Positions 6,204 through 15,009 of a DNA stretch of 64,000 nt are shown piece by piece. Position numbers and translations under genes: made by a program. The notes under the pieces were generated by a model. That model did no database searches and was not told the DNA's origin. It saw only the letters and a list, made by a program, of their open reading frames with translations. The stretch is from Agrobacterium tumefaciens (GTDB lineage: Bacteria > Pseudomonadota > Alphaproteobacteria > Rhizobiales > Rhizobiaceae): contig NZ_WJOK01000010.1 of assembly GCF_009649785.1 (NCBI RefSeq), positions 1-64,000 on the forward strand, written 5' to 3'. Position 1 is the stretch's first letter. Every line of letters starts with the position of its first letter.

Positions 6204-7082
6204 TCATGTCCGGTCCGGCCTGCGGAACAGACGCGTCTGCTCGAACAGGCCTTCCAGCGCGTTCATGCGCTCCTTGGTTTCATCCCAGGTGCTGCTCTGC
6301 ACCGCTTCGATCAGCGCTTCGACGACAAACAATGTAACGACCGATGAATCCCATGCCGAGGGGGCTTCGATCTTCACACGGAAGGTGTGCAGCGCGTGGC
6401 GCGCCACCGGCGATGTCCACTGATCCGTGAAAAGAATGATCTGTACGCCGTTTGCCTTCGCCACCTCGGCAAGCGTCGTCATGTCGTGCTCATAACGGCG
6501 GATGTCGAAGATCACCAGCACATCGCCGGCGCTCATATTCAACATATATTGAGGCCAGGCGCTGGAGTTGGACGACATCAGCGTCGTCTTTGGCCGGATC
6601 ACCTGCATATGCGTGAAAAAATATTCGGCAATCGCGCCGGTGATGCGCCCGCCGACGAAATAGATGCTGCGTTTGCGGTCCGAGAGCAGCCTTGCGGCAT
6701 TGTCGAAGACCGCGGTGTCGAGATCGCTCAAAGTGTCGCGCAGATTGCCCGTTATGGCGTCGGCGAAACGGTTGAGAATATGCAGACCCGGCGCATTGGT
6801 TGCCCAGCGGTCATGTTTGGCAACCGGGCCGGAGATCGTCGCTTCCAGTTCCTGGTGCAGATGGGCCTGAAACTCCGGGTAACCTTTGTATCCGAGCTTC
6901 TGCACCATGCGCGCCACCGTCGGCGTCGAAACACCCGCATTTTCGGCAATCGTGGTGATGCTGCCGAGACCCGAGACGGGGTAGTTGCCGAGAAGGCTCT
7001 CCGCCAGCCGTTTTTCCGAACGGGTCAGCGCGTCATAGTGGGCATGGATGACATCCGACACGGTGGCCGTCGTACTGCGCAA
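6204..7082 (-). CDS. MurR/RpiR-family transcriptional regulator
   Basis: A 292-residue repressor/activator. The N-terminal ~77 residues are an RpiR helix-turn-helix (SITTIAENAGVSTPTVARMV); residues ~125-260 form a SIS phosphosugar-binding-like domain (IYFVGGRITGAIAEYFF and ..VLVIFDIRRYEHD). It uses a TTG start, supported by GGGGAAAG five bases upstream; the next in-frame ATG would cut into the HTH. It is transcribed divergently from the amidohydrolase gene and lies directly upstream of the ABC operon on the same strand, so it could control either or both. Rhizobial RpiR proteins often control adjacent catabolic loci; the effector here is unknown. Confidence 0.85.
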   Translation of the reverse strand: MRSTTATVSDVIHAHYDALTRSEKRLAESLLGNYPVSGLGSITTIAENAGVSTPTVARMVQKLGYKGYPEFQAHLHQELEATISGPVAKHDRWATNAPGLHILNRFADAITGNLRDTLSDLDTAVFDNAARLLSDRKRSIYFVGGRITGAIAEYFFTHMQVIRPKTTLMSSNSSAWPQYMLNMSAGDVLVIFDIRRYEHDMTTLAEVAKANGVQIILFTDQWTSPVARHALHTFRVKIEAPSAWDSSVVTLFVVEALIEAVQSSTWDETKERMNALEGLFEQTRLFRRPDRT

Positions 7083-7259
7083 ATCTTTCCCCTTCCGGTC
7101 TTTTTGCCGGTGTATGGGCGAATATAAGCATCTGTGCCAGCTATCGAGTCAATGGGGAAAATGAAGAGAAAATTTCAAAATTCCATTTGACACTCGCGAT
7201 AATGTGAAGAATTCTTTTCGTCATCGGCGGGATGGCAGGTTTCGGGGCGGGATGCGTGC
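7083..7259. promoter_or_regulatory. Divergent control region between RpiR-type regulator and amidohydrolase
   Basis: The 177-base gap holds an AT-rich block with GAAAATTTC at 7168-7176 followed closely by AAAATTCC, and GAAGAATTC further on. A TTGACA hexamer lies at 7187-7192. The GAAA/TTTC half-sites are candidate RpiR operators. No strong -10 box is placed at ideal spacing, so the assignment is tentative. Confidence 0.35.
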
Positions 7260-8033
7260 ATGACGGTGCGTTCACGGTTTTTCACGGAAGCGGAAGGACA
7301 GGCTGTCGGCGTCGAGAACGCCGCAGCAAAGGGCGACGTCGTTCTGGTCTGCGAACATGCTTCAGCCACCATCCCGGAAAAACTCGGTACGCTCGGTCTT
7401 TCGCCGGACGTGCTTTCGAGCCATGCGGCCTGGGATCCGGGTGCCTTGGCGGTTGCAAGGCTGCTTTCGCAGAAGCTTGATGCCACGCTCATTCATCAGC
7501 GGTTTTCGCGCCTGGTCTATGATTGCAACCGGCCGCCGGAATCGCCTTCTGCCATGCCGGTCAAAAGCGAGATTTACAATATTCCCGGCAATCTCGATCT
7601 GAGCGATGCGGAACGGTTTGCCCGAACCTCGGCGCTTTACGTGCCGTTTCACGACCGTGTCAGTGAGATTATTGCCGAGCGGCAGGACCGCGGCCGCAAG
7701 GTGGTGGTGGTGACCATTCACAGTTTCACGCCGGTCTATCACGGTCAGTTCCGTGAAGTGCAGATCGGCATCCTGCACGATACTGACAGCCGGCTGGCCG
7801 ATGCGATGCTGGTGGGCGCCGAGGGTTCTGCGCTCACGGTAAAGCGCAACGATCCCTACGGTCCGGAAGACGGTGTAACGCATACATTGCGGCTGCATGC
7901 GCTGCCGGACGGACTTTTGAACGTCATGATCGAGATCCGCAACGATCTGATCGCCAATGACGGAGACCAATCGGTAATTGCCGATTTTCTCCACGAGCTT
8001 ATGGGGAAGGCGCTCTCATCAATCGATGAGTGA
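7260..8033 (+). CDS. N-formylglutamate amidohydrolase family protein
   Basis: A 257-residue hydrolase of the FGase (HutG-like) family, which cleaves an N-acyl or amide bond on glutamate-like substrates. Family features visible are VCEHASATIPEKLG near residue 30, YDCNRPPESP near 88 and TIHSFTPVYHG near 150. No other histidine-degradation (hut) gene is nearby; instead a permease, a glutamine-synthetase-like ligase and two dehydrogenases follow, so the true substrate may be a gamma-glutamyl amide rather than N-formylglutamate. That is inference from context. It starts at the ATG after GGCGGGATG, and is 212 bases from the permease gene. Confidence 0.85.
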   Translation: MTVRSRFFTEAEGQAVGVENAAAKGDVVLVCEHASATIPEKLGTLGLSPDVLSSHAAWDPGALAVARLLSQKLDATLIHQRFSRLVYDCNRPPESPSAMPVKSEIYNIPGNLDLSDAERFARTSALYVPFHDRVSEIIAERQDRGRKVVVVTIHSFTPVYHGQFREVQIGILHDTDSRLADAMLVGAEGSALTVKRNDPYGPEDGVTHTLRLHALPDGLLNVMIEIRNDLIANDGDQSVIADFLHELMGKALSSIDE

Positions 8034-8245
8034 GGGAGCAATGGGGCGGCTTATGGTGAAAACACCGCGGCCGACCGTCAATTAGACTGCCGCAATCGAC
8101 AAAAGCCGGAACGGCATGAAGCGGCAAGGGAACAGCAGATGCGTGCGGCGCAGTGCGGGAAACCTCCCGGGCGATGCCGGAAACTGGGGGCACAATCGGC
8201 CAATAACGGCTGGCTGGCTTTTTTTTCTATTAAGGAGAGAAGGGC

Positions 8246-9760
8246 ATGGACGGTTCATCATCAGGCGTCAGCTACAAGAAGGCTGATGCATCCTATTTCG
8301 AAAAACGCGGACTATCCCGATACGCGGGCGTGTGGTCGCTGTGGTCGCTTGGCGTCGGCGCGGTTATATCAGGGCATTTTTCCGGATGGAATTTCGGTTT
8401 TTCCACCGGCGGCTGGGGTGGCATGCTGGTGGCGGGCATCATCATCGCCATTATGTATCTCGGGCTGACATTCTCGATTGCGGAAATGAGCCCGGCGCTG
8501 CCGCACACGGGTGCTGCCTATTCCTTTGCCCGCACGGCCATGGGCCCGTGGGGCGGTTTCGTCACCGGACTTTGCGAGAATGTCGAATATGTGCTGACGC
8601 CGGCGGTCGTCGTTACCTTCATCACCGCCTATGTGAACTCCATTCTCGGCCTCGATCCGGCCTATTCACCCTTCGTGTGGATAGCCTTCTACGCGATCTT
8701 CCTTGCTCTCAACGTCTTCGGACTTGAGCTTTCCTTCAAGGTCACCCTGGTCATCACGCTGATTTCACTCGGCGTTCTGGTGTTCTTCTGGGTTAGCGCC
8801 ATTCCGAACATGGATTTTTCGCGTTACGCGCTTAATATCGGTGTCGGACCCGATGGCAAGGCTGTGGAGCTGCCGGAAGGCAACGGTTCCTTTTTCCCAT
8901 TTGGTTTTTCGGGCGTTCTTGCCACGCTGCCTTTTGCGGTCTGGCTGTTTCTCGCCATCGAGCAGCTGCCGCTGGCGGCTGAAGAATCCGTTGATCCGAA
9001 ACGCGATATGCCCAAGGGTATCATTCTCGGCGTCATCACGCTGATGGTTTCGGCCTTCATGATCGTGTTGCTGAACCCGTCACTACCGGGCGTCGGCGCC
9101 TTTCATCTCAGCTCGTCCCTTGAACCGCTGCTGGATGGCTTCAAGGCGATCTACGGCGATGGCGGCGTGGTGCTGCTTGGTCTCGTGGCATTGACCGGCC
9201 TGATTGCCAGCTTCCATACGATCCTCTATGCGCAGGGCCGCCAGATCTATTCGCTGTCGCGTGCGGGTTACTTCCCGACAGTGCTGTCAATCACTCATTC
9301 GAAATACCGGACGCCATACGTTGCCAATATTGCCGGCGCGCTCGTCGGCCTTGCGGTCATGCTCGTCATCTGGTTCTCGCTGGGTGCGGAACAGGGCGGC
9401 AGCATCATCGGCAGCGTGCTTTTGAACATGGCCGTGTTCGGTGCGATGTTCTCCTACATCCTGCAGGCGATTTCCTTCATTCTGCTCAGGAAAAATCTGC
9501 CGCATATCGAGCGGCCGTTTCGCTCGCCCTTCGGCATTCCGGGCGCGGTGTTGACAATCATCATCGCCATCGTGACGCTGCTCTATCAGATCCAGGATCC
9601 GAACTTCACCAAGGGTGTGCTGTGGGTAGCCGTATGGTTTGCGGTTGCCATTGCCTACTTCGCCTTTGTCGGACGCCATCGCCTCATCCTGTCGCCGGAA
9701 GAGGAGTTCGCGCTGGAGCACAAGCAGGCTGCCATGGCAGCGGCGGCTGCAAAGGCCTGA
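8246..9760 (+). CDS. APC-superfamily permease, ethanolamine type
   Basis: A 504-residue membrane transporter with about 12 predicted helices. It matches ethanolamine-permease-like APC proteins as I remember them: FSGWNFGFSTGGWGGML near the first helix, GLCENVEYVLTPAVVV, EQLPLAAEESVDPKRDMP and YAQGRQIYSLSRAGYFP. It is expected in the inner membrane, importing ethanolamine or a related amino alcohol. Start is the ATG after AAGGAGAGAAGGGC. The C-terminus ends in an Ala-rich tail. The following ligase and dehydrogenases support an amino-alcohol catabolic role. No ethanolamine ammonia-lyase (eutBC) is present in the window. Confidence 0.87.
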   Translation: MDGSSSGVSYKKADASYFEKRGLSRYAGVWSLWSLGVGAVISGHFSGWNFGFSTGGWGGMLVAGIIIAIMYLGLTFSIAEMSPALPHTGAAYSFARTAMGPWGGFVTGLCENVEYVLTPAVVVTFITAYVNSILGLDPAYSPFVWIAFYAIFLALNVFGLELSFKVTLVITLISLGVLVFFWVSAIPNMDFSRYALNIGVGPDGKAVELPEGNGSFFPFGFSGVLATLPFAVWLFLAIEQLPLAAEESVDPKRDMPKGIILGVITLMVSAFMIVLLNPSLPGVGAFHLSSSLEPLLDGFKAIYGDGGVVLLGLVALTGLIASFHTILYAQGRQIYSLSRAGYFPTVLSITHSKYRTPYVANIAGALVGLAVMLVIWFSLGAEQGGSIIGSVLLNMAVFGAMFSYILQAISFILLRKNLPHIERPFRSPFGIPGAVLTIIIAIVTLLYQIQDPNFTKGVLWVAVWFAVAIAYFAFVGRHRLILSPEEEFALEHKQAAMAAAAAKA

Positions 9761-9824
9761 TGCTCGAACTGACGGGCGGCCGCATACCGGCCGCCTGCTC
9801 GCCACATGAAAAGGGATGGACAAA

Positions 9825-11189
9825 ATGACGAGCTATACATTCGACGCGCTGAAGATGGATGTGGCCGAAGGGCGCATCGACACGGTTCTGGCCTGCCTTG
9901 TCGACATGCAGGGGCGTCTGATGGGCAAACGGTTCCAGGCGGAGTTTTTCGTTGAAAGCGCCTTTGAGGAAACCCATAGCTGCAACTATGTGCTTGCCAC
10001 CGACATGGAGATGGAAACCGTTCCCGGTTACAAATCCTCAAGCTGGGAAAAGGGCTATGGCGACTATACGCTGAAGCCCGACCTTTCGACGCTGCGGAAG
10101 GTGCCGTGGCTGGAAGGCACGGCGCTGGTTCTGTGCGATGTGCTCGATCACCACACCCATGAAGAAGTGCCGCATTCGCCGCGCGCGCTGCTGAAAAAGC
10201 AGGTGGCGCGGCTGGAGGCGATGGGGCTTAAGGCCTATATGGCCACCGAGCTCGAATTTTTCCTGTTCGACCAGACCTTCGATGCGGCACGCGCCAGCGG
10301 CTACAGGGACCTGAACCTCGCCAGCGGCTACAACGAAGACTATCATATCTTCCAGACGACCAAGGAAGAGGACGTCATGCGGGCGCTGCGCAAGGGCCTG
10401 CAGGGTGCGGGAATTCCGGTCGAGAATTCCAAGGGCGAGGCGTCTCCCGGTCAGGCGGAAATCAATGTGCGTTATGCCGAGGCGCTGACCATGGCCGACC
10501 GGCACGCCATCATCAAAAACGCCACCAAGGAGATCGCCTGGTCGAAGGGTAAGGCGGTGACGTTCCTTGCCAAGTGGAACTACAATGCCGCTGGCAGTTC
10601 CTCGCATATCCACCAGTCGCTGTGGAGCCTGGATGGCAAGCCGGCTTTCCTCGACAAGGATGGCGAACACGGCATGTCGGATGTGATGCGGCATTATGTT
10701 GCCGGGCTTCTGGCGCATGCCAGCGACATCACCTATTTCCTGGCGCCCTACATCAATTCCTACAAGCGGTTCATGGCTGGCACCTTCGCGCCGACCAAGG
10801 CGATATGGAGCCTCGACAACCGCACGGCAGGATACCGCCTTTGCGGCGCGGAAACCAAGGGCATCCGTATCGAGTGTCGTGTCGGCGGGTCGGATCTCAA
10901 TCCCTATCTCGCCATGGCCGCCCTTCTTGCGGCGGGCATTGACGGCATTGAAAATAAACTCGAACTTGAGCCCGCTTTTGTCGGTGACGCCTATGGCGGG
11001 AAGGACGTGCGCGAGATACCCAAGACATTGCGCGACGCGACCGCCTTCCTGGACGGATCGAAAATGCTGCGTGAGGCCTTTGGCGACGACGTGGTCGATC
11101 ACTATGTGCACGCCGCAAGGTGGGAGCAGGAAGAATACGACCGCCGCGTGACCGACTGGGAAGTGGCGCGCGGTTTCGAGAGAGCCTAA
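9825..11189 (+). CDS. Glutamine synthetase family protein, probable gamma-glutamylamide ligase
   Basis: A 454-residue ligase of the GS superfamily, in the branch that attaches glutamate to amines (PuuA, IpuC, GlnA4-like) rather than ammonia. Catalytic elements are present: TELEFFLF, GEASPGQAEIN, the ATP/glutamate-site AGSSSHIHQS, and the arginine-bearing WSLDNRTAGYR and IECRVGGSDLNPYLAM. I chose the second of two close ATGs because AAAAGGG sits nine bases before it and the first ATG has no ribosome site. Predicted reaction: glutamate + amine + ATP to gamma-glutamyl amide. The permease upstream suggests ethanolamine or an analogue as the amine. Confidence 0.85.
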   Translation: MTSYTFDALKMDVAEGRIDTVLACLVDMQGRLMGKRFQAEFFVESAFEETHSCNYVLATDMEMETVPGYKSSSWEKGYGDYTLKPDLSTLRKVPWLEGTALVLCDVLDHHTHEEVPHSPRALLKKQVARLEAMGLKAYMATELEFFLFDQTFDAARASGYRDLNLASGYNEDYHIFQTTKEEDVMRALRKGLQGAGIPVENSKGEASPGQAEINVRYAEALTMADRHAIIKNATKEIAWSKGKAVTFLAKWNYNAAGSSSHIHQSLWSLDGKPAFLDKDGEHGMSDVMRHYVAGLLAHASDITYFLAPYINSYKRFMAGTFAPTKAIWSLDNRTAGYRLCGAETKGIRIECRVGGSDLNPYLAMAALLAAGIDGIENKLELEPAFVGDAYGGKDVREIPKTLRDATAFLDGSKMLREAFGDDVVDHYVHAARWEQEEYDRRVTDWEVARGFERA

Positions 11190-11207
11190 TCATTACGGGA
11201 AAACATC

Positions 11208-12596
11208 ATGACCATGATCCAGAATATCTCGCCCATCGACGGCTCGGTTTATGCCGAGCGGGAGGCGATGTCGCTGGAAGCGGCGCGCGCCGCCGTTTCT
11301 AAAGCGCGCAAGGCGCAGAAGGACTGGGCGCGACGTCCGCTTGAGGACCGTGTTCAGCTGGTTCTCAAGGGTGTGGCGCGCCTTAATGAAATGGTGGCCG
11401 AGGTGGTGCCGGAACTGGCGCATATGATGGGCCGCCCGGTTCGTTATGGCGGCGAGTTCAAGGGCTTCAACGAGCGCTCCAATTATGTCGCCTCCATTGC
11501 GGCGGATGCGCTGGCGCCGCTCGTCATCGAGGAAAGCGGCAATTTCGAACGCCGCATCGAGCGCGAAGCACATGGCGTGGTCTTCGTCATCGCGCCGTGG
11601 AACTATCCCTACATGACGGCGATCAATACCGTTGCCCCGGCTCTGATGGCCGGCAACACAGTCGTCATCAAACATGCGGCGCAAACGCTTCTCGTCGGCG
11701 AGCGGATGGTGCGGGCTTTCGTCGAGGCGGGCGTGCCTGACGATGTCTTCATCAATGTCTTCCTCGATCACGGCACGACCTCGGCGCTGATTTCCGAAGG
11801 CCTGTTCAATTTCGTCAACTTCACCGGTTCGGTGGAAGGCGGCCGAGCCATTGAGCGTGCTGCTGCCGGCACCTTCACCGGTCTCGGGCTTGAACTCGGC
11901 GGCAAGGACCCCGGCTATGTGATGGAGGATGCTGATCTCGACGCTGCCGTCGATACGCTGATGGATGGCGCGACCTATAATTCCGGGCAATGCTGCTGCG
12001 GCATCGAGCGTATCTACGTCAACGAAAACCTCTATGACGCATTCGTCGAGAAGTCCGTGGCGTGGGTGTCCAACTACAAGCTCGGCAATCCGCTGGAACA
12101 GGAAACGACACTCGGGCCGATGGCCAACAAGCGTTTCGCCAAGGTGGTGCGCGCACAGATCGCTGATGCCGTCTCAAAGGGCGCCAAGGCTTTGGTCGAT
12201 CCCAAGCTTTTCCCTGCCGATGACGGCGAGAGCGCTTACGTCGCTCCGCAAGTGCTCGTCAATGTCGATCATTCCATGGAGTTCATGACCGAAGAAACCT
12301 TCGGCCCCGCTCTTGGCATCATGAAGGTGAAAAACGACGACGAGGCCATCGCCCTGATGAATGACAGCAAATATGGCCTCACTGCCTCGCTCTGGACGCA
12401 GGATGCAGCGCGTGCCGGGCGTATCGGCCGTGAGATCGAAACCGGCACCGTGTTCATGAACCGTGCGGATTATCTCGATCCCGCGCTCTGCTGGACAGGT
12501 GTGAAGGAAACGGGCCGTGGCGGCTCGCTTTCCGTTCTCGGTTTCCAGAACCTGACCCGACCGAAATCCTACCATCTGAAGAAAGTCACGAAATGA
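11208..12596 (+). CDS. NAD(P)-dependent aldehyde dehydrogenase
   Basis: A 462-residue aldehyde dehydrogenase, slightly shorter than the ~480-500 of PuuC or betaine aldehyde dehydrogenases. The active-site glutamate lies in GLELGGKDPGYV and the catalytic cysteine in NSGQCCCGIERIYV; the cofactor site shows FTGSVEGGRAIE and the anchor PWNYPYMT. Its position between the GS-like ligase and the iron alcohol dehydrogenase, with a 4-base overlap into the latter, suggests successive oxidation of an alcohol to an acid within one pathway. Substrate inferred from context only. Confidence 0.9.
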   Translation: MTMIQNISPIDGSVYAEREAMSLEAARAAVSKARKAQKDWARRPLEDRVQLVLKGVARLNEMVAEVVPELAHMMGRPVRYGGEFKGFNERSNYVASIAADALAPLVIEESGNFERRIEREAHGVVFVIAPWNYPYMTAINTVAPALMAGNTVVIKHAAQTLLVGERMVRAFVEAGVPDDVFINVFLDHGTTSALISEGLFNFVNFTGSVEGGRAIERAAAGTFTGLGLELGGKDPGYVMEDADLDAAVDTLMDGATYNSGQCCCGIERIYVNENLYDAFVEKSVAWVSNYKLGNPLEQETTLGPMANKRFAKVVRAQIADAVSKGAKALVDPKLFPADDGESAYVAPQVLVNVDHSMEFMTEETFGPALGIMKVKNDDEAIALMNDSKYGLTASLWTQDAARAGRIGREIETGTVFMNRADYLDPALCWTGVKETGRGGSLSVLGFQNLTRPKSYHLKKVTK

Positions 12597-13738
12597 ATAT
12601 CGTCGCCAACTGGAGCTATCCCACCGCCGTCAAGCTTGGCCGTGGCCGGATCAAGGAACTGGCGGAAGCCTGCAAGACGCTCGGCATCAAGAAGCCGCTT
12701 CTCGTCACGGATCGCGGCCTTGCCAATATGGCGATTACCGCGCATGCGCTCGATGTACTGGAAGAGGCTGGGCTCGGCCGGGCGATCTTCGCCGACGTCG
12801 ATCCGAACCCCAACGAAATCAACATGGAAGCCGGCGTAAAAGCCTATCGCGATGGCGGCCATGACGGCGTCGTCGCCTTCGGCGGTGGTTCCGGCCTCGA
12901 TCTTGGCAAGACCATCGCATTCATGGCCGGGCAGACGCGCCCGGTCTGGGATTTCGAGGATATCGGTGACTGGTGGACGCGGGCGGACGCCTCGAAGATT
13001 GCGCCCATCGTCGCGGTTCCGACGACGGCGGGCACCGGTTCGGAAGTTGGCCGCGCCAGCGTCATCACCAATTCGCAGACCCATGTGAAGAAGATCATCT
13101 TCCATCCGAAGCTTTTGCCCGGTGTCGTCATCTGCGATCCGGAGCTTACAGTCGGCATGCCGAAGGTCATCACGGCAGGCACGGGCATGGACGCCTTTGC
13201 CCATTGCCTCGAAGCCTATTCGTCGCCGTTCTTCCATCCGATGAGCGCCGGCGTTGCGCTTGAAGGCCTGCGTCTGGTCAAGGAATTCCTGCCACGCGCC
13301 TATAAGGACGGCACGGATATCGAAGCGCGCACCAATATGATGGCGGCGGCTGCGATGGGGGCGGTTGCCTTCCAGAAGGGTCTCGGCGCCATTCACTCGC
13401 TCTCGCATCCGATCGGCGCTGTCTATAACACCCATCACGGCATGACCAATGCCGTGGTCATGCCTGCCGTCCTGCGTTTCAACCGCCCGGCCATCGAAGA
13501 CAAGATTGCCCGCGCTGCCGCATATCTCGGCATTTCGGGCGGTTTCGATGGTTTCTATGATTATGTGCTGGAGCTTCGCAAGGAACTCGGCGTGCCTGAT
13601 AACCTGACCGCCATGGGCATTAAGCCTGACCGCATCGACGAACTGGCGGCAGAAGCGATCAAGGATCCGAGCTGCGGCGGCAATCCGGTGCCGATGACGC
13701 TGGAGAATACCAGGAAATTGTTTGAGGACTGCTTTTAA
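12593..13738 (+). CDS. Iron-containing alcohol dehydrogenase
   Basis: A 381-residue group III dehydrogenase. NAD-binding GGGSGLDLGK lies near residue 97. The metal-ligand region carries the Asp and His residues of TGMDAFAHCLEAY, the Ile-His-Ser-Leu-Ser-His stretch near residue 265 and NTHHGMTNA. Start overlaps the aldehyde dehydrogenase stop as ATGA, so the two are translationally coupled. In the proposed pathway it would oxidise the hydroxyl of a gamma-glutamylated amino alcohol, before the aldehyde dehydrogenase acts. Confidence 0.9.
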   Translation: MNIVANWSYPTAVKLGRGRIKELAEACKTLGIKKPLLVTDRGLANMAITAHALDVLEEAGLGRAIFADVDPNPNEINMEAGVKAYRDGGHDGVVAFGGGSGLDLGKTIAFMAGQTRPVWDFEDIGDWWTRADASKIAPIVAVPTTAGTGSEVGRASVITNSQTHVKKIIFHPKLLPGVVICDPELTVGMPKVITAGTGMDAFAHCLEAYSSPFFHPMSAGVALEGLRLVKEFLPRAYKDGTDIEARTNMMAAAAMGAVAFQKGLGAIHSLSHPIGAVYNTHHGMTNAVVMPAVLRFNRPAIEDKIARAAAYLGISGGFDGFYDYVLELRKELGVPDNLTAMGIKPDRIDELAAEAIKDPSCGGNPVPMTLENTRKLFEDCF

Positions 13739-13747
13739 AGGGTAGTT

Positions 13748-14131
13748 ATGGCAGCCATGAGATTTTCAGTTTTTTCGCCATTGCTCGCAGTGGCGTTTCT
13801 AAGCCTGCCCCTTGTGGCGCAGGCCGCTTCTTTCAGGGAACTTTCCGGTCAGGGTTACAAAGTCGGAGCTCTGTCGAGCACTAAGGCGGGGATCCGGGGA
13901 TGGAATTTGTCCAGGGGTTCAGACCGCTATTTCTGTGAAATGCGCGCGACTATGGCGTATTCTGGAAAGAAAGGCATGGTGTCCTTCACCAGCGCCGGAC
14001 GCATGATTACGCTTGATCGTGCAACCGTTGAGAAAAGGCTGGGCAGTTCCCTGAACTTGCCGAAGTACGAGGATCTAAAAGCCGGCCGCCTGCGCGCGGA
14101 CGATGTGGGTTCCTGCCGAAAGCTGGGGTGA
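13748..14131 (+). CDS. Small secreted protein of unknown function
   Basis: A 127-residue protein with a clear signal peptide (VFSPLLAVAFLSLPLVAQA, cleavage after AQA). The mature part of about 100 residues is basic and contains two cysteines (FCEMR and SCRKLG) that could form a periplasmic disulfide. AAAGGG precedes the ATG. It lies nine bases after the iron alcohol dehydrogenase stop, so it may be read through from that operon, but nothing links it to the pathway. A strong terminator follows. I do not recognise the family. Confidence 0.7.
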   Translation: MAAMRFSVFSPLLAVAFLSLPLVAQAASFRELSGQGYKVGALSSTKAGIRGWNLSRGSDRYFCEMRATMAYSGKKGMVSFTSAGRMITLDRATVEKRLGSSLNLPKYEDLKAGRLRADDVGSCRKLG

Positions 14132-14292: not shown

Positions 14293-15009
14293 ATGCCTGT
14301 CATTACTTTTGCTAACACCAAGGGCGGCGCGGGAAAAACAACTGCCGTATTGCTTCTGGCAACCGAACTTGCCCGCAGCGGCCACCGCGTAACGGTTCTG
14401 GATGCCGATCCGCAATTGTGGATTTCCCGCTGGCACGAATTATCAGGCGAGATCGAAAATCTCTCGGTAATTTCGCATGTCACGATGGCGTCCCTCGAGG
14501 GGCATATCCGCGAAAACAATGCCAATACCGACTGTTTCATCATCGATCTGCCGGGAGCGAAAAACCCGCTTCTGACCATGGCGCTTGGTATTTCCGACCA
14601 TGTGCTGATACCGGTGCAGGGCTGCGCCATGGATGCGCGTGGGGCTGCCGAGGTTCTTGACCATATCGAGTTCCTGAACCGCAAGATGGGCAAGGCGATC
14701 GCCCATTCCATCGTGCTGACGCGGGTCAACGCCATGGTGGCGACGCGCTCGCTGCTGCTCGTCAAAATGCTGCTGGCCGAGAAGAACGTTTCGGTCCTGA
14801 ATACGCCGATTGTCGAAAGAGCGGCCTATCGCGATATCTTCGATTATGGCGGAACGCTTCTCTGTCTCGACAAGGACAAGGTCAGCAATATCGACAAGGC
14901 GGTGGAGAATGCGAAAGCATTCGCGAGCGAGGTGCTAGGCCTTTTGCCGAAACCCCTGTCGCGGTTGGGCACCCAACCCGCGCGCTTTTTCACCCGCAAG
15001 GCGGCTTGA
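14293..15009 (+). CDS. ParA/MinD-type P-loop ATPase, VirC1-like orphan
   Basis: A 238-residue ParA-family ATPase. The deviant Walker A TKGGAGKTT is at residues 10-18 and the switch-II region reads CFIIDLPGAKNP. Overall length and pattern resemble VirC1 and small chromosomal ParA proteins that position cargo at the pole or on the nucleoid. No parB, parS, repB/repC or virD2 partner is adjacent, so it is an orphan: it could position chemoreceptors, a conjugation complex or another assembly. It is monocistronic, with a terminator on both sides. Family firm, role open. Confidence 0.85.
   Translation: MPVITFANTKGGAGKTTAVLLLATELARSGHRVTVLDADPQLWISRWHELSGEIENLSVISHVTMASLEGHIRENNANTDCFIIDLPGAKNPLLTMALGISDHVLIPVQGCAMDARGAAEVLDHIEFLNRKMGKAIAHSIVLTRVNAMVATRSLLLVKMLLAEKNVSVLNTPIVERAAYRDIFDYGGTLLCLDKDKVSNIDKAVENAKAFASEVLGLLPKPLSRLGTQPARFFTRKAA

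Follow-up and report, generated by a model that had tools for sequence, protein, structure and literature searches.

How could an agrobacterium catabolise ethanolamine by way of a gene cluster that lacks an ethanolamine ammonia-lyase? The question is raised by a 64,000-nucleotide stretch of DNA from Agrobacterium tumefaciens (GCF_009649785.1, contig NZ_WJOK01000010.1, positions 1 to 64,000 of the forward strand), hereafter the window, in which five consecutive genes encode an FGase-family hydrolase, an APC permease, a ligase resembling glutamine synthetase (GS), an aldehyde dehydrogenase and an iron-containing alcohol dehydrogenase. The original prediction took these genes for an operon that degrades a gamma-glutamylated amino alcohol, and the list of open reading frames (ORFs) and a Pfam scan agree that all five are present and belong to the families it named. 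Its span, 7260-13738, is right for the five genes but omits a divergent RpiR-family gene. We consider it highly probable, at roughly 90%, that the operon is the Agrobacterium form of a known pathway of ethanolamine use that is independent of ammonia-lyase.

The operon and its presumed pathway

The locus was compared with the best 80 of 591 confirmed relatives among the matches listed, a sample of named, close relatives only. The genes are:

6204..7082, minus strand: RpiR-family regulator (HTH_6 and SIS domains by Pfam), divergent, likely repressor of the operon; in the same place in 78 of the 80 loci
7260..8033, plus strand: FGase-family (PF05013) amidohydrolase, 257 amino acids, presumed gamma-glutamylglycine amidohydrolase; a close relative of Atu2144
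8246..9760, plus strand: APC permease of the ethanolamine type, 504 amino acids, named from its TIGR00908 score and Pfam
9816..11189, plus strand: GS-like gamma-glutamyl-amine ligase, 457 amino acids, presumed ethanolamine gamma-glutamylase, named from Pfam, structure matches and motifs
11208..12596, plus strand: aldehyde dehydrogenase, 462 amino acids, presumed to convert the aldehyde to gamma-glutamylglycine, named from Pfam and invariant residues
12593..13738, plus strand: iron-containing alcohol dehydrogenase, 381 amino acids, presumed gamma-glutamylethanolamide dehydrogenase, named from Pfam and invariant residues

In the proposed pathway the permease would import ethanolamine, and the ligase would use ATP to couple glutamate, through its gamma-carboxyl, to the amine of ethanolamine. 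The alcohol dehydrogenase, followed by the aldehyde dehydrogenase, would oxidise the hydroxyl to the aldehyde and then to the acid, gamma-glutamylglycine, which the FGase-family enzyme would split into glutamate and glycine. We infer each of these reactions, and the substrate itself, from the families encoded: PF00120, PF00465, PF00171 and PF05013 enzymes stand together in the window with an RpiR regulator adjoining, as in the ethanolamine glutamylation pathway. The series of steps in the original prediction, from uptake to amide hydrolysis, matches what is published for this gene set. The same set is described in Phaeobacter by Westermann et al. (2023; PMC10132767), where the operon proteins, the hydrolase included, rise on phosphorylethanolamine and the protein EtoX binds ethanolamine at ~8 uM; this and the other articles are cited here from excerpts of their text.

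The order RpiR, FGase, ligase, aldehyde dehydrogenase, alcohol dehydrogenase is kept in 78 of the 80 loci, and in both exceptions (L057, on a 4.9-kb contig, and L097, with 3.1 kb ahead of the ligase) the record stops short of the missing genes. The five-gene arrangement is thus not a matter of chance. A neighbourhood search for co-occurrence of the five predicted families finds the four enzyme families and RpiR together in these 78 loci, with a transporter that varies.

The ligase scores 346.4 bits to Gln-synt_C and aligns along its length with the PDB entries 11zs (678 bits) and 5dm3 (661 bits), the latter of which we take to be a protein of Chromohalobacter salexigens; every other solved structure scores at most 188 bits. 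Its closest named counterpart among the matches listed is from Agrobacterium arsenijevicii, at 98% over the best segment. Residues were compared in alignments that combine the window with the named loci (79 sequences for FGase, 81 each for the ligase and the aldehyde dehydrogenase, and 80 for the alcohol dehydrogenase); the invariant residues named for the four enzymes include catalytic or metal-ligand positions of their families. E145, E147, E208, H264, R336, R341 and E353 of the ligase are invariant, in keeping with the prediction that its catalytic motifs are intact.

The GYEAP motif of the genome's own GlnA (L119) reads GTFAP in the ligase, and F324 is invariant in all 81 sequences. The glutamate of GYEAP has a role in the ammonium site of glutamine synthetase, so that its replacement favours an amine ligase over a glutamine synthetase. 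A second GS paralogue (L122) has SEHAP at this position, so loss of the glutamate is not peculiar to the ligase and is no mark of an ethanolamine ligase in particular; besides the ligase the genome has five GS-family matches, of which L119 and L122 were compared and L121, L123 and L124 left out. Identity as a type I glutamine synthetase was rejected on the replaced glutamate and on a TIGR00653 score of 270.1 bits against a cut-off of 429.15.

The ligase is also somewhat similar to gamma-glutamylputrescine synthetase (NF045547, 212.1 bits), as it might be if the operon served a polyamine or a generic amine in the manner of Puu and its link to ethanolamine were incidental. The score is far under the PuuA cut-off of 650 bits, and identity as PuuA was rejected. 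Moreover, at the step where the Puu pathway uses an amine oxidase the window has a hydroxyl-oxidising iron alcohol dehydrogenase, and its final hydrolase belongs to PF05013; a Puu-like role is accordingly very improbable.

Both dehydrogenases have conserved active-site motifs. The aldehyde dehydrogenase (Aldedh, 386.4 bits) has N132, E229 and C262-C264 invariant in 81 of 81 sequences, and the alcohol dehydrogenase (Fe-ADH, 163.7 bits; ADH_Fe_C, 146.5 bits) has D200, H204, H268 and H282 invariant in 80 of 80. At the junction between the ligase and aldehyde dehydrogenase genes, nine of the 80 loci (L070, L074, L085, L090, L091, L093, L094, L097 and L108) carry an insert of ~0.9-1.0 kb that encodes a helix-turn-helix (HTH) protein and a PIN-domain protein and resembles a toxin-antitoxin pair within a catabolic operon. 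The copies in L070, the sole ones scanned, score 22.6 bits to HTH_3 (cut-off 23) and 44.2 bits to PIN (cut-off 23.6); the other copies are 42-80% identical to them, yet lie at the same position.

The hydrolase scores 147.9 bits to the FGase family (cut-off 28.9) and matches PDB 2odf, the hypothetical protein Atu2144, end to end over residues 1-257 (508.5 bits); Atu locus tags are, we assume, those of A. tumefaciens C58. Its H33 and H154 are invariant across the alignment. Membership of PF05013 is shared with HutG, and a Paracoccus alcaliphilus plasmid cluster encodes RpiR, a TRAP system, the ligase and both dehydrogenases with no hydrolase adjoining, which could mean that the FGase gene serves histidine degradation and merely neighbours the operon. 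Against this, the protein scores 20.6 bits to TIGR02017 where the HutG cut-off is 278.75, and identity as HutG was rejected; a separate HutG on contig C1 scores 391 bits, above that cut-off. The FGase gene adjoins the operon in 78 of the 80 loci, and the Phaeobacter counterpart rises with its operon in the excerpt of PMC10132767, so that a role in histidine degradation has next to no likelihood. The genome encodes six PF05013 proteins (contigs C1, C23, C62 and C63), one alone above the HutG cut-off. The original prediction held an FGase-family enzyme to be new as the final hydrolase; since a table in a 2022 review lists PF05013 for gamma-glutamylglycine amidohydrolase (PMC9397018), this had already been proposed.

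Transporters, the ammonia-lyase and the substrate

The slot between the FGase and ligase genes is filled in three ways: of the 78 loci, 22 have an APC permease of the window's type, 43 have an APC permease of a second type and 13 have a TRAP system. L079 is counted with the ethanolamine-type permeases because one permease alone fills its slot. The second APC permease, as exemplified by L104, shares 24% identity with the window's permease across 279 residues (E 3e-7), and its best profile is TIGR00907, at 201 bits and below the cut-off of 598. One TRAP binding protein was searched, that of L068, and it matches 4uab and 4xf5 with 538 bits. We take 4uab to be a C. salexigens protein and 4xf5 to be a binding protein with aminopropanol bound, the search showing only that its sequence is shared with 4uab.

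EutBC, the ethanolamine ammonia-lyase, cleaves ethanolamine to acetaldehyde and ammonia in a B12-dependent reaction. The prediction that no such enzyme is present is true of the operon, since neither EutB nor EutC is found among the 10 window proteins scanned at the locus, but fails for the genome, where two EutB genes are present. Each adjoins EutC, on contigs C3 (L125) and C24 (L126), and use of ethanolamine need not therefore depend on the operon. A choline/ethanolamine-kinase-like gene lies near one pair; an FGGY kinase and a flavin (FAD) oxidoreductase are encoded near the other. A tblastn search of the 18 kb around each pair finds no match to the operon proteins, to the second permease or to the TRAP binding protein.

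Across the window's family, the Rhizobiaceae, the two routes seldom meet. In a survey of 101 genomes from 100 genera, the ligase occurs in 70 (E < 1e-80; weakest listed match 4.3e-186), and EutB is found in five of these 70 as against 15 of the 31 without the ligase. Five genomes thus have both (G000, G057, G071, G092 and G094), 65 the ligase only, 15 EutB only and 16 neither (Fisher p = 5.9e-6, uncorrected for kinship between genera); the EutB match in G071 is weaker, at 475.8 bits. These cells were counted by hand from the ligase and EutB listings, and four of the EutB-only genomes (G079, G081, G088 and G097), which fall among 11 unlisted negatives, were scored as lacking the ligase by their absence among the 70 positives.

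Several points weigh against the operon as a proven or sole route for ethanolamine. The two EutBC pairs speak against a sole route. Against the ethanolamine permease profile TIGR00908, the window's permease (AA_permease, 118.4 bits; AA_permease_2, 115.6 bits) reaches 360.6 bits and narrowly misses the cut-off of 381.75; the genome has one other match, far weaker at 70 bits, and neither passes the cut-off. In the 43 loci the transporter is an APC permease other than the ethanolamine type. Finally, published accounts disagree about how well the pathway is established. Relatives of the gene set in C. salexigens and A. tumefaciens C58 are called demonstrated in PMC10132767 (citing Vetting et al., 2015), where a figure legend calls the pathway predicted; the 2022 review, which tabulates PF00120, PF00465, PF00171 and PF05013 for C. 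salexigens, calls the steps proposed (PMC9397018), and in another article the C. salexigens pathway is predicted in silico (PMC6529630). As excerpted, these sources place the pathway and its FGase-type last step in print either way.

With two EutBC pairs already serving ethanolamine, and with an aminopropanol presumably bound in 4xf5, the main substrate might instead be 2-amino-1-propanol, 1-amino-2-propanol or the like, short amino alcohols which the same chemistry would convert to alanine or a related amino acid. The affinity of EtoX for ethanolamine and the rise of the Phaeobacter proteins on phosphorylethanolamine argue against this, as far as the excerpt of PMC10132767 goes. So does the near-exclusion of ligase and EutB, which fits a shared substrate, ethanolamine. 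We judge an aminopropanol to be an unlikely main substrate and retain ethanolamine.

For the family as a whole, it seems an evenly balanced proposal that the operon stands in for ethanolamine ammonia-lyase as a non-orthologous route that needs no B12. On this view a fixed catabolic core with its RpiR operator would be combined with any one of three interchangeable uptake systems, namely TRAP or either of two APC permeases that are only distantly related. Both routes would seldom be kept, and genomes with both may use them for different ends, that is, nitrogen without acetaldehyde as opposed to carbon.

The regulator and a candidate operator

The RpiR protein (SIS, 101.7 bits; HTH_6, 60.1 bits) faces the operon across an intergenic region that was compared between the window and the 78 loci (n = 79). 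Three elements stand out:

7162..7176, plus strand: candidate RpiR operator box 1 (TGAARAG-N5-TTC); strict pattern in 64 of the 79 regions
7187..7192, plus strand: candidate -35 element TTGACA; 58 of the 60 two-box regions have TTGAC- between their boxes
7205..7219, plus strand: candidate RpiR operator box 2 (TGAARAATTCTYTTC); strict pattern in 74 of the 79 regions; would overlap the -10 element

Both boxes occur in 60 of the 79 regions, spaced by 41-43 bp in every one of the 60, and TTGAC- stands 18 bp ahead of box 2 in 57 regions; 12 of the 19 regions without both boxes have a box 1 variant, TGAAGAAATAATTTC. The box patterns were derived from these same sequences and close kinship of the loci inflates the counts, which describe the footprint and do not test it. 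A looser two-box pattern finds the window's own site alone in the whole genome, and nothing in a reversed control, which shows specificity and not function.

The RpiR protein probably acts as a repressor by binding the two candidate boxes, which flank and overlap the promoter. We infer repression because box 2 overlaps the expected -10 element, which is itself poor: 17 bases beyond TTGACA it would read AATTCT. A generic promoter scan also counts against this promoter, as it gives TTCAAA/GATAAT at 7174-7203 and not the proposed TTGACA; its output is barely above chance (6 promoters against 3.5 +/- 1.8 and 15 terminators against 9.4 +/- 3.3).

At the other end of the operon, a 127-amino-acid ORF at 13748-14131, which starts 9 bases past the last gene, was considered as a sixth member and left out, having a match in only seven of the 80 loci and no family; in five of the seven it lies close behind the alcohol dehydrogenase gene. 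It is followed at 14293-15009 by a ParA/VirC1-like ATPase, matched in 64 of the 80 loci, mostly within ~2 kb beyond the operon.

Comparison with known systems

The pathway is already known and only the strain that carries it is new. The near-exclusion with EutB, the exchange of transporters and the operator are modest additions; no earlier report of these three was recognised from titles and abstract openings, in a search that left most subscription journals outside. The operon would link the ethanolamine of membrane lipids to glycine and glutamate without B12, a role for which marine and halophilic bacteria are already known. The present survey adds the frequency of the operon across the family, its rarity alongside EutB, the variation in transporters and a candidate operator that can be tested.

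A close likeness is the operon of Phaeobacter sp. MED193 (RpiR, GGAH, EtoVWX, ETAGA, GAADDH, GETADH), which, in the excerpt of PMC10132767, has the same regulator family and four enzymes and, by locus tags, the same order with the transporter between hydrolase and ligase, a likeness of description and not of sequence. Uptake there is by a TRAP system, whereas the window has an APC permease. The C. salexigens pathway has the same four enzyme families (PMC9397018) and likewise differs in having a TRAP-type ethanolamine-binding protein (PMC10132767); excerpts elsewhere note ethanolamine as a surprising TRAP substrate (PMC5812351) and place Csal0679 among putative glutamine synthetases (PMC5299690).

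In Streptomyces coelicolor, the GlnA4 (SCO1613) cluster is described as gamma-glutamylating ethanolamine through the same proposed steps, with a member of the formylglutamate amidohydrolase family proposed for the last (PMC6529630). A figure legend in that article gives a short-chain dehydrogenase and a glutamine amidotransferase, unlike the window, whereas its discussion and PMC9397018 give a hydrolase of the formylglutamate-amidohydrolase type, the latter with an iron-dependent dehydrogenase. The Eut pathway (EutBC), which occurs twice elsewhere in the window's genome, also uses ethanolamine but by different chemistry. The window's FGase also matches Atu2144, which we assume to belong to A. 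tumefaciens C58, the other bacterium for which the pathway is cited in PMC10132767.

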